64,000 nucleotides of DNA. Origin: Muricea muricata. Its lineage: Eukaryota > Cnidaria > Anthozoa > Malacalcyonacea > Plexauridae. The notes under the pieces are model-generated. The model ran no database searches and had not been told where the DNA came from. It was given only the letters and a program-made list of their open reading frames with translations. The translations under genes and the position numbers were made by a program. Position 1 is the first letter of the stretch. Every line of letters starts with the position of its first letter. The DNA lies in contig OY979730.1 of NCBI GenBank assembly GCA_963855995.1, forward strand, positions 7,107,300 to 7,171,299, given 5' to 3'. Shown here in pieces: positions 16,501 through 31,500 of this stretch.

Positions 16501-19500
16501 TTTAATATTTACTAACACTAAAATAATCGACAAATCAAATCACTGGTCTCTAATACTTTTTCAAGAGTCTATTGCTATAAATAGATTGAAACCGTCACTT
16601 AACCATGGAACTAAAGCTTCTAAAGATCGATTAATTTTTAACTAATCATATCTTGTTACTTCACTATATAATTGTACGTATATGTAATATCATCATCATT
16701 CATTTCCTGATGATGACTATAGTTCAGTCGAAACGTCGAAACAAATTTTCAATATATTATGGATCTTCGGAGTACCTATTGTTTTGTATATATTCATATA
16801 CTTGTCCCGTTTTAAGGGTTGTTTGTACTTTTAGCCTTTTTGTATTATACAATTTTCGAGGCTATTTACAAGATAAAAATAGTCGCTGAAACGTTCAGCA
16901 ATATTGTTCAGGAAAATACTGTACGAATAGAAGTTGAATCAGTGTCCCTAGGTCTTATTTTGTCAACGGCACTACACAGCTTTTGTTCCTTAAATTAAAA
17001 ATTGACGAAAATTTTTTGGGTTGGTATGAAAGTTGAAAAAAAAATATGAATAAATGTGTGCATATTGAATTTTTACCAAGATATTAAATTTCCTGAATAT
17101 TTGAGAATTGAATTGGATATGAATTCTAACATTCAATTAAATGCATTTTTATTCTATATTAAATGACATACGGATTAAATAAAATAAATAAAACGTCACT
17201 GAATATTCCTACAAATAAGCAGGCATATGTCAACTCGGTGTGCTTGCGAGTGATAGTTCGCATAGAAAAAAATATTTCAGTTCTAAAGGCTGTTTTCCAC
17301 TAGGCCAAATTTTCCGCGCGCAGCGCAATTTTTCTTTGTTTTTGAGCTCGCAGGCAGGACTAATCAAAAAAAGACAAAAAAAAAATTGCGCTGCGCGCGG
17401 TAAATTCCGCCCTGTGGAAAACAGCCTTAAGATATGCTCACGGCCTATATGCAAATTCACTTTTTTGTATTCACCAGAAACAGAAAATCGCCAACCGAAT
17501 CAATGCGGAATTAAATACTTCATTAGAACACATTCACAGGTGAGCAGCATTACTCCTGCACTATAAGGTCTTAAAACCAATCTCGCCCGTGATTGGTTGA
17601 TTTAGCTTCTCCCTAGCGACGGGGTAGCAACCGCGAAAATTAAATATTGAAATCTTTTTTACATTGTCATTTTTAACTTTTAAAGCTTGTTTTTGCTACG
17701 AAATATAACATATGTTTGTCAATATTTTTGAAAATTCGCTTAAAGGCAAATAACGAACAGTCTTGGTTTGTTTTATGTTTGTTTTTCAATGGCGGAAGCA
17801 GTAGAAACCGTCACATTAAGTGGCATCCTAAATTTCTTCAATGAAGACCAAAAAAGTGTGGAAAAAGGGGAACAAAAGTTTAAGTGTGGTTTTGTTTTGG
17901 ACGTAAAACTAAGAAAACACACGATAAATGCAATGATACGCACGTCTACGAAGGATAAAAGTTATACGGTTTGTTTAGAAGTAAATGGAGATGGTAATAT
18001 TTTACGTGGTAGTTGCGATTGTCCAAGGGAAAAGTGGATACGCTCGCATATGGCCGCTGCAGCAATCCATGCAAACAAAAATGGATTTTCGAAAACAGAC
18101 CTCCCAAACACATGGATAAAAAGACCAAAAACCGAAGCAAAAAAAGATGTGAAAACAATGGAGTTTTTTCCAAGCAAGAAACCACGTTACGAAGCACCAC
18201 CAAGAGCTGTGTCTGAACAAGACCGATTATTTTTATTTGAAAAGCTATCCAATGCGCCATCTCACTGTCCTATGAAATGGATAATTTCACCTGAACCAGT
18301 ACTACCAGCAAGCAAAGTTTTGGACAATATACGACCTGCACTTATTGAGGACATCCTTGTGGACTTCATTACAGACAAACAAGTATTTATTAATAAGTGT
18401 AAGGTTTCTGCAGAACAAATTTCGTGGTTGGCTGAGGAGACTAAAGAACAAAGAAACTGTGAAATGTGGGGAAGATATCGAAGGCTCCGTCTTACTGGCA
18501 GTAATTTTGGAGATGTACTAGGTGCAATCGCACGGCATTTAACCTCTATACAGTAAATCATACCCACCATCGTTGTTTGAAAAACTTAAGGGAAAGTATT
18601 GCTTTGGAACGAAAGATTCGATTATGTGGGGGCAAATGCTCGAGGATCATGCAATTCAACAGTACATAGAAAAAACTGGCAACGATGTTGAAAAAGCTGG
18701 CCCCTGCTCATTTTCTTGTGGCTATTTAGGAAGCACGCCTGACGGGACAATTAATTCAACAAAGGTTCCTGACAAAGAAGTCAGTGGTGGATCTAGCGTA
18801 AGTCAAAATAAATTACCACAGCTCATTCTAGGATATATTTACATTATAAAATACCTTCAAAGCAACTTCATTGGTTAGATTTTATTCTTTTGAAATTCAT
18901 AACCTATGACATTGTTATAAAGTTATTTTGAATGTGAAATTGAGCTGCTATAATTTATTTTGAATTACCCTGGATCCGCCACTGAAAGGAGTGCTTGAAG
19001 TAAAGTGCCCCTGGAAACACAGAAACAATACTATCAATGAAATGGTTCATGCAGAACTGGGAGTAAAAAAGTCAACTAAAGCCTTTTATCTTAAAAAAAA
19101 TCTCACCTCAATGAACATAACTATTGGCATCAAGTTCAAGGGGAGATGGCTCCATCAAACACAGAGCGGGCTCATTTTGTCATTTGGACAATGAAAGAAC
19201 TAAAAATTGTATCAGTACAGCTAGACCCCAAATGGGTTGCAACCAATTTGCCCAAATTACAAAATTTTTATGTGAATGAACTATTACCACATTTTTACAG
19301 CAGGGAAGAATGAATCTGAACAGCAAAGAGGACACATAGTCAAAATTGCTTGGAAACGAAATATGCATGGTACACCTTTGTACATATCATTCAACATGAA
19401 TCTATTTCTTGAGAGAAAAAAATGCCACATACTCATGCACTCTTCAACATAGAAACAGGAAACCTTATTTACAATCACTAGAAACTGTATAACCAACCAT

Positions 19501-28500: not shown

Positions 28501-31500
28501 ATTTAAAACATTTGTTTTCTTAGTTATTGTGAAAACCATATTGTTAAAAACTCATTTGTTGTAAAAACTTTATAATATACATTTCAAAACACAAATTTTG
28601 CGTTTCTTCTCTGTCATTCACCCTATTGCGATGACGTCACTCTACTTCCGGCATCACCATCTTGCATACTAATCACCGCCAAAAGTGCCGCCATCCTGCA
28701 TACTAATTACTTTCGCCGCCATTTCAAATACTAATTACTTCCAGCGCCATAGTATAAGAGTAATGCTGCTCAGGTCATCGCAGTGTGGAAACCAAGCTTA
28801 ACACTAATATTGCATACATGGGGCTTTGCTACCACATAAATCTATCTTACCTCTCGCAGATCATGTTTATACAGCGCAGCATTTCTTTCCAGTTCTCTGT
28901 TGGATGTCTCCGCCTTCTTTCTTGTTTCCACCTATGCAAAAGGCAATAATTTTTCAATTCGCACATTTTGTGCATGCAGAGAATACAAGCAACAATATTT
29001 TATAGTTAACCTCCGTCTCCAATTCTTTAGAAATCTTCTCTAGTTTTGCCGTGATGGTTCTAAAAGAACGTACAAATTATATGTTATCCTATATGTTACA
29101 CATAAAGGCCACTTCGTACCAAATGTATAATATATCCCTATATGGGCCCGAAAATATTTGTTTAATTTGGTTTCCTACTGTGCTGGATTAGTTCTACAGC
29201 TCTGAATGTGAATAAAGTGGTGAGTCTGTATAGTTACGACGAGCAAGTTGGATCACGGACTATTGATGAAACACCCAGGGCCGGTTGTATAAAACTCTAT
29301 CACTTTTTTAATCACCGTTTTGTACGTCAATATAAGTACAAAATACATGGTTCTGATTGGTTGACGTTTCTACTAACCATAAATAACCATTATACATTGA
29401 TACATTATACAAAAACACTACACTGGCTTTTCCGCCATTATTCTGACCAGCCAATTGCATAAAAATAGGGGACATGTTCCACTAGTGAGTGGCATTACTG
29501 TTTACTCCTTACACTGTGCTCCCTACAACCCACCCCTGAACCATATATCTATTATGTATAGGCGAATACCGAGGAGGAATTTATGTGGATATACGACGTA
29601 AATCTCGACTTTCGAGGTATTTAACATTTCATTTTTGAGGAGGTTTTCTAGTAGAATCTTTCGACTTTAAACAACTTAAGTCGACATTTTCCCACAAGTT
29701 TCATCTACTTATTTATTCAAGGTGAATAACCTGGATATAACCCGCAGTACATCAAAGAAAACCGACTAAATCAATAACTAAGCAATGATATGACTCATGA
29801 TACTAACGAGGCATGAGAGTACGTGATAATAGCGAAACGTGTTGATTCGTGACACGCATCTGAGGAAGTTCGTTCGCAGTTTTTTTGAATGCTTTGTACA
29901 TTCAAACATGACAAAAATGACTGGTATCATATACAAGACTCTTAAATAGTTTATTTATTCTTCTGATAGTCTTCTAGAAATATATGTTTTAAACGCACAG
30001 ACTAAATTAAACACGCCCAATAAAAACTCTGTACTATAGCCAAAAAATGGGTGTTTGCGTATAACTCCTTGCGCATAAAAACCTACTTTTATAAACAAAC
30101 AAAAAATACAAAACATCGTCCCAATTATCGGCAATGATTGAGGAAAACAAGGACAATAAGGCATATTTATATGCTATGGCACGTATTCAATCTGGACCGG
30201 CTACACGCAAATATGATGTTTACAGACCTATTTGAATATTTACAAGAAGAAATTCGCATGAATTTGTCTTCTATTGTTTTCAAAGAATCCTCGATATTTT
30301 CTATTTCTAAAAAAAATTAGATTGTCTCCGAGCGAGCAATTTGAAAATAATACATCCGCTCCATTTTTCACGATGCGCTCTAGAAATTGATACGGTTTCT
30401 GCCAGGCGCTTCCGAACGCACAAATGATTTCGCGCGAGCATAACTCACGCGCGCGACGCAAAGCCGTGGTGCATTAAAGCGCCGGGAACGATAAAGCATT
30501 CGCAACCGGTCTGTATCTGATTTATTAGGTAAAATTAACATTTGACTACTATTTGAGCGAGGACTATTTTCGTAAAAGGTCGTGCAATTTTGAAAACGTG
30601 CGTAAAATTAAACAAGACTTACTTGAGATTATTTTCTGCCTCGTTTTTTACAGACTTCTCTTTGGCCAACTGTTGTTCGAGAGCGTCCATCTTTTTTCGG
30701 ATGTGATCTGGAGTGAAATGCTTGAAACCACCAGTACAGTTTTCTGATATCTAAGAGGAAATTTCTCTTTAAGTGGACTCCTGAAATTCATTCCAGGATG
30801 TAAAAGACTCGTAATAATATACAAGGAAAGGTTTACTGTGATTGGTTTAATTAAGTGCAGTTAAATCCAAACACCAGTACAAAATCGTCACAGTGCACAC
30901 ATTTGTAATGGCTGTGCAAATAATCTGCAATCACCAAGAACGATCAAATATAAGATGAGACGACGGTATAAAGGTATAAATTTTTCAAGACGTTACAACA
31001 TTGACCAAATCATTTATGCCTTGTATGCCTTGTATGCAATTTACCAGTCTTAATATTTTGCCATTAGTTTCGTAACAAAGTTTAATTGCGATTTTGAATA
31101 ATTGCCATGCAATACCCAGCATAAAAAGAGCACGAATGGAACCAAGATTTGGAACTTACAACGTGTTAGCCTTCTTATTTCCTAAGGTAGATTGCGTACG
31201 TTCAAATGACAATCGCTTAAATGACCATCGCACAGCGCATATCGCCATGCTGTGGTCATACCAATCTCGTACATAGATCCCGCTATCTACTTGGTTTAGG
31301 AACGAAGGGCTCTGGCATAATCCATTTCTTTCTTTCACTTGAATGGTCCTCGTATTTTTTTGAGGTAACCAATCAGAATAAAGTTGAGACTAAAATAATT
31401 GCTTTGTTTACTTCCAGCACATGCGCAGTAATACCTGATCTGGATTATGCCCGAGCTCTTCAGAGCGCCTCAGTCAAGAGGATCGCGGGCTCTGTGTACG

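Follow-up and report, generated by a model that had tools for sequence, protein, structure and literature searches.

What kind of mobile element is the insertion at 17543–28770 in the 64,000-nucleotide stretch of Muricea muricata DNA analysed here (contig OY979730.1; hereafter the window)? The first-pass annotation described it as a composite transposon of unassigned superfamily with a 4-bp target-site duplication, and as the best candidate in the window for an undescribed mobile element. In our reading, this insertion (the outer element) is instead a Polinton/Maverick that has decayed, is non-autonomous and was later hit by other transposons; we give this reading a probability of about 93%. 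The assignment is made because copies in the same genome have AG...CT ends and 6-bp duplications, and because an element with the right-arm units of the window carries a viral-type DNA polymerase B gene. The outer element is a known kind of element and not a new superfamily; unusually, a zinc-finger gene is present in its relatives, here called the GRF gene after its GRF fingers.

The outer ends were present as annotated. The word GAGCAGCATTACTC begins at 17542 and its reverse complement occupies 28758–28771; each occurs once in the window, and AGGT stands outside both. When the phase is taken from other copies, the element proper runs AG...CT from 17543 to 28770, with the junctions CAGGTG/AGCAGC on the left and GCTGCT/CAGGTC on the right. 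The element and its flanking duplications comprise the following features:

17537–17542: left 6-bp target-site duplication, CAGGTG (phase from other copies).
17543–17564, plus strand: left terminus, starting AGCAGC, the first part of the left inverted repeat; 17563–17564 is one copy of an AT duplication.
21971–22120, plus strand: left arm resumed, with the remainder of the left inverted repeat (21973–22027) and repeat units (repeat search, arm alignment).
27905–28437, plus strand: GRF gene, with one stop and two frame changes.
28653–28742, minus strand: right-arm repeat units (repeat search); 22 of 30 GRF loci have the same unit 3' of the gene.
28694–28770, minus strand: right inverted repeat, ending GCTGCT (repeat search, arm alignment, shuffle test).
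28771–28776: right 6-bp target-site duplication, CAGGTC.

The length of the duplication was read from other copies. A 2361-bp copy with a GRF gene inside (L007, C1:119569753–119572113) shows GCCGTG/AGTAGC at one end and ACTACT/GCCGTG at the other, a duplication matching at 6/6 positions. Two further pairs were found by using one right end as the query, which gave at least 46 matches; among the eight stretches read, four formed pairs and four were single ends. The pair on contig C12 (ATTACC/AGTAGG ... CCTACT/ATTACC) has a 6/6 duplication and terminal inverted repeats identical at 49/50 positions, and the pair on C15 has a 5/6 duplication (TACGTT and TTCGTT), its repeats agreeing at 28/50 positions in a gapless comparison owing to a small length difference. 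Immediately outside AG and CT, these three copies have G/G, C/A and T/T. Because the other copies set the phase, AGGT in the window is a mis-phased 6-bp duplication, CAGGTG/CAGGTC, that matches at 5/6 positions, and the G and C that the annotation counted as the outermost bases of the element belong to the duplication, as its sixth and first base, respectively. In excerpts of one study, vertebrate Mavericks likewise have (AGT)2//(ACT)2 ends and 6-bp duplications (PMC8097293).

Taken by itself, the window copy has AGGT beside a perfect inverted end of 14 bp, which would suit a new superfamily of cut-and-paste elements that make 4-bp duplications and encode a GRF protein. This reading is very unlikely: the three other copies lack the G...C pair that it needs and have a direct repeat of 6 bp, which refutes it provided that their shared arm units place them in the same family, and relatives carry polymerase B and integrase genes. 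A candidate new superfamily is thereby removed, as a 6-bp duplication with one changed base can pass for one of 4 bp.

Do the two ends belong together? The repeat search returned the inverted pairs 17541–17564/28749–28772 and 21971–22027/28694–28750 and, between them, a perfect pair of 65 nt (17574–17638/21898–21962). The left outer arm is interrupted between 17564 and 21971 by another element; once this nested element and one AT copy are excised, the outer arms align without gaps over 78 bp and are identical at 65 positions, compared with 35 for the best of 10,000 shuffles. This match shows that the outer ends are those of one insertion, and it fixes the nested element at 17565–21970. The annotated single insertion with paired ends, later hit by others, is thus upheld; the term composite transposon is not appropriate, as the extra content consists of nested insertions and not of two end-elements moving together. 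The proposed own content of about 3 kb is about right, with the 5' limit of a later LINE-like (long interspersed nuclear element) insert being approximate. The insertion had been annotated as filling nearly all of intron 19 of ROCK; by eye, exon-like sequence lies on both sides of it.

Another reading would be that the ends belong to two separate solo elements, which the annotation had named as something that would overturn it, or that they are a chance pair. The ends are indeed 11 kb apart and most of what lies between them is later inserts. We regard this reading as highly improbable, as the gapless 78-bp match spans an exactly removable insert, the duplication matches, and the order of GRF gene, arm unit and end is common to other copies.

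The repeated arm units of the annotation were confirmed as units of about 28 bp within both arms (repeat search); the exact word AAGTAATTAGTATGCAAG given for them occurs only once in the window, at 22009, and the remaining units are variants. The arm units (e.g., 28694–28730) hold ATGGCGGC-like words that resemble a YY1 site. Searching the genome for copies by the exact outer end of the window copy was unproductive: the 14-mer GAGCAGCATTACTC is found at two other places only, both in surroundings unrelated to the element, and it was dropped as a family tag. It is the GRF gene that leads to the family. A scan of a viral contig collection gave no relatives of either the outer ends or the arm unit.

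We searched the same genome (453 Mb, 74 contigs) for the GRF gene and scored the best 150 of 634 candidates, which showed the gene to be repeated across the genome with at least 150 matches. The 30 best loci were inspected for the arm unit, taken as a 13-mer with at most two mismatches. In 22 of them the arrangement is that of the window, with the unit on the opposite strand about 0.2–0.65 kb 3' of the GRF gene. The other eight comprise two loci with the unit just upstream (L022, L028), three where a single loose match is found some 1.2 kb downstream on the other strand (L029–L031) and three with none (L032–L034). Moreover, an [AG]CT[AG]CT end follows 34–37 nt past the unit start in 17 of the 22 loci, against 0.07 expected per locus. 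These 17 ends show 14 different printed flanks; L009 and L014 share theirs, as do L023–L025, so that they are not independent. Among the five misses, L006, L012 and L027 carry single-base variants of the motif, L013 was measured from an earlier unit and its end is visible, and L021 was measured from the wrong unit. In the right flank at L012 (L012:429–821, minus strand), a family element seems to lie next to or within a polymerase-like open reading frame (ORF) seen by eye, in which Pfam found nothing.

The gene content of these relatives points to the same group. At L005, which has right-arm units of the window type, a DNA polymerase B gene of the viral, protein-primed type lies about 3.1 kb from the GRF gene (L049:7371–8360; Pfam DNA_pol_B_2, 4e-25), and a second polymerase-like piece, seen by eye, lies about 2.4 kb away. 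At L028 the order is AGTAGT end, arm unit, GRF gene and polymerase B pieces (in L048; DNA_pol_B_2, 3e-10), with a retroviral-type integrase (rve, 9.6e-14) past a long microsatellite. In L035–L038, the GRF gene, an integrase with rve and chromodomain (rve 5.5e-14 in L035) and a capsid homologue occur in one repeated unit, and the main segments are 99.1–99.96% identical in three comparisons with L035. The capsid assignment concerns a 449-amino-acid ORF of L035: among the best 120 of 1011 homologues, one is named Capsid protein (P0152) and another Major capsid protein (P0173). The closest named sources in that set are Paramuricea (71%) and Dendronephthya (70%), both of which we take to be octocorals, followed by stony corals, echinoderms and others, a spread that makes a cnidarian host probable. 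Beside the GRF gene of L029 is an ATPase-like gene, with scores below the cut-offs for FtsK (21.3 bits vs 24) and Pox_A32 (17.9 vs 22.8). The same repeated units (L035:3900–9780 and L036–L038) also hold a protease-like ORF, by eye, and their direct tandem flanking repeats, AGGGCGCCGC..., are unusual for Polintons.

Membership in Sola, Ginger or Academ, known superfamilies with 3- to 5-bp duplications (Sola2 in excerpts of PMC3627910; Ginger1, Ginger2 and AcademX in excerpts of PMC10045372), suits the duplication if it is taken as 4 bp and has next to no probability, since the copies show 6 bp, polymerase B and capsid genes are not explained by a cut-and-paste integrase alone, and the 20 window ORF pieces scanned, inside and outside the nested ISL2EU-type element, showed no such transposase apart from that of the nested element itself.

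Several observations weigh against a Polinton/Maverick origin. The duplication in the window matches at 5/6 positions, and a 4-bp AGGT with G...C ends fits this copy equally well. Only L007 of the three two-ended copies holds a GRF gene; among the listed GRF matches none falls between the C12 or C15 ends, these pairs having been read at their ends only. The long microsatellite in L048 separates polymerase B from the integrase, and the repeats on either side of the L035–L038 units are direct rather than inverted. In the co-location test, 11 of 150 GRF genes lie within 30 kb of one of the best 150 integrase matches, where 4.3 were expected and the maximum of 500 random placements was 11; the test is weak, as both sets are the best 150 only and the integrase used as query comes from outside the L028 element. 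The relatives were read in parts, none of which shows the full set of hallmark genes enclosed by paired ends. Finally, the window copy itself showed no polymerase, integrase, ATPase or capsid gene among the ORFs scanned (20 of 69 of at least 60 amino acids).

What, then, fills the 11 kb between the ends? The inserts and remaining gene pieces are as follows:

17565–21970: nested ISL2EU-type transposon, 4406 bp (AT duplication at 17563–17564/21971–21972, 65-nt 100% inverted repeat, exact restoration of the outer arm, domains).
17744–19313, plus strand: second gene of the ISL2EU-type element in pieces, a SWIM-like motif (by eye) and then a YqaJ-like domain, split by a miniature inverted-repeat transposable element (MITE).
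18782–18984: the MITE, 203 bp, with CAGTGG... ends, inside the YqaJ gene; 8-bp duplication AAAGAAGT/AAAGGAGT, 7/8.
20654–21919, minus strand: transposase pieces of the ISL2EU-type element (THAP 21620–21919, HTH_Tnp_4 21054–21257, DDE_Tnp_4 20654–21145).
22339–22747: fold-back or MITE-like insert, with arms of 173 nt at 85% and 45 nt at 87%.
22957–23337, minus strand: broken C2H2 zinc-finger gene piece (Pfam scan; related proteins P0057, P0063, P0065 and P0066).
23279–23704, minus strand: membrane-protein ORF piece, laid out by eye as a leucine-rich-repeat-like end, a serine/threonine-rich stretch and a transmembrane stretch.
24361–27865, plus strand: broken LINE-like retroelement, its endonuclease and reverse transcriptase pieces mostly seen by eye; both limits are approximate.

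The AT target-site duplication of the ISL2EU-type element is present at the exact junction. Pfam scores of its transposase exceed the cut-offs for THAP (32.8 bits) and DDE_Tnp_4 (68.6 bits) and stay under the cut-off for HTH_Tnp_4 (20.6 vs 27); the YqaJ-like piece scores 17.5 bits, under the YqaJ cut-off of 22. The matching part of its inverted repeats begins GGTCTT, with two unmatched bases (AA and GC) outside GG. The MITE inside it is one that we take to be hAT-like. Because of this nesting, the insertion order is outer element, ISL2EU-type element, MITE, and the arm identities fit it (65/78 for the outer arms, 65/65 for the nested ones). In the LINE-like stretch, Exo_endo_phos_2 was detected at E=0.011, under the Pfam cut-off.

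The membrane-protein ORF may be a gene of the outer element itself, judging from its sequence: in a single comparison it is weakly similar to an ORF that neighbours polymerase B in L048 (30% over 82 amino acids, E=5e-6). Against this, of 16 candidates in the genome only the ORF itself matched at E≤0.001. The C2H2 piece follows it directly on the same strand (22957–23704), and the four C2H2-related proteins fall in clusters of one or two sequences each. Elsewhere in the window there is a second inverted-repeat element (6551–8499), with matching ORFs on its arms at 6455–6682 (minus strand) and 8368–8679 (plus strand).

The tandem GRF fingers reported at the right-hand end of the outer element were recovered. 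Pfam gives GRF 26.5 bits on the read-through (cut-off 25.9) and 24.1 bits, under the cut-off, on the open piece alone, and the closest solved structures are those of the NEIL3 tandem GRF domain. The read-through retrieved 55 proteins at E≤0.01 out of 73 candidates (E from 1.7e-52 to 1.2e-18); these homologues have 116–241 amino acids, in clusters of up to 58 member sequences. Three GRF-like fingers are seen by eye in the alignment of the relatives' proteins, and Pfam sees two stretches in L029. Pattern searches for the family gave 63 matching stretches in viral contigs and 161 in a genome contig collection, with none confirmed in either. The predicted structure was poor (mean predicted local distance difference test score, pLDDT, of 47) and was not used.

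To our knowledge, Polintons are not known to encode a single-strand DNA-binding protein. APE2 has a GRF finger that binds single-stranded DNA, as excerpts of one paper state (PMC12723232), and by analogy a single-strand binding role of the GRF protein in Polinton replication is plausible. A tentative proposal goes further: cnidarian Polintons would regularly carry this gene (about 185–255 amino acids, up to three fingers) as an accessory, and it would supply the single-strand DNA-binding protein that protein-primed, strand-displacing replication requires. As a whole, we consider this rather unlikely. GRF is not mentioned in the Polinton papers listed by the literature searches; a further search covering both subjects listed no Polinton paper, but could miss one with a single Polinton term and a single GRF term. 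The multicopy GRF-finger accessory gene of Polintons is possibly the new part of this work, and this abundant gene could fill a gap in how such virus-like elements copy DNA.

Polintons combine a protein-primed polymerase B with a retroviral-like integrase, according to excerpts of two sources (PMC11071308, PMC6431247). If the outer element follows its named family, a full relative would have been copied by such a polymerase, and a retroviral-type integrase would have joined its ends to host DNA with cuts 6 bp apart. The window copy would then have lost most of its genes. The ISL2EU-type element probably inserted later at an AT site 22 bp in from the left end, and the hAT-like MITE in turn within it; the fold-back and LINE-like elements would have entered the middle. 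The locus thus documents a nested series of insertions.

How does this locus compare with known systems? In excerpts of a published description, ISL2EU elements average about 4840 bp, make AT duplications and encode a YqaJ protein besides a THAP/HTH/DDE transposase (PMC4482050). The nested element, of 4.4 kb, likewise has an AT duplication and a THAP, helix-turn-helix (HTH) and DDE transposase, and its second gene resembles YqaJ at a score below the cut-off; it differs from ISL2EU (IS4EU) in being broken by a MITE and in the two unmatched bases before GG at each end. The GRF protein of the window has the same finger type in tandem as NEIL3, but is small and stand-alone, with up to three fingers (by eye) and no glycosylase domain. 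With respect to Polinton/Maverick elements (polintoviruses, adintovirus-like), the window copy differs in being a fossil with AGCAGC ends, its hallmark genes not found in the scanned ORFs. The outer element nevertheless shares with them AG...CT ends of the (AGT)2//(ACT)2 type, a 6-bp duplication and inverted repeats, and its relatives carry a viral polymerase B, a capsid homologue and an integrase that combines rve with a chromodomain; one of them, L029, also has the ATPase-like gene that scores below the Pfam cut-offs.

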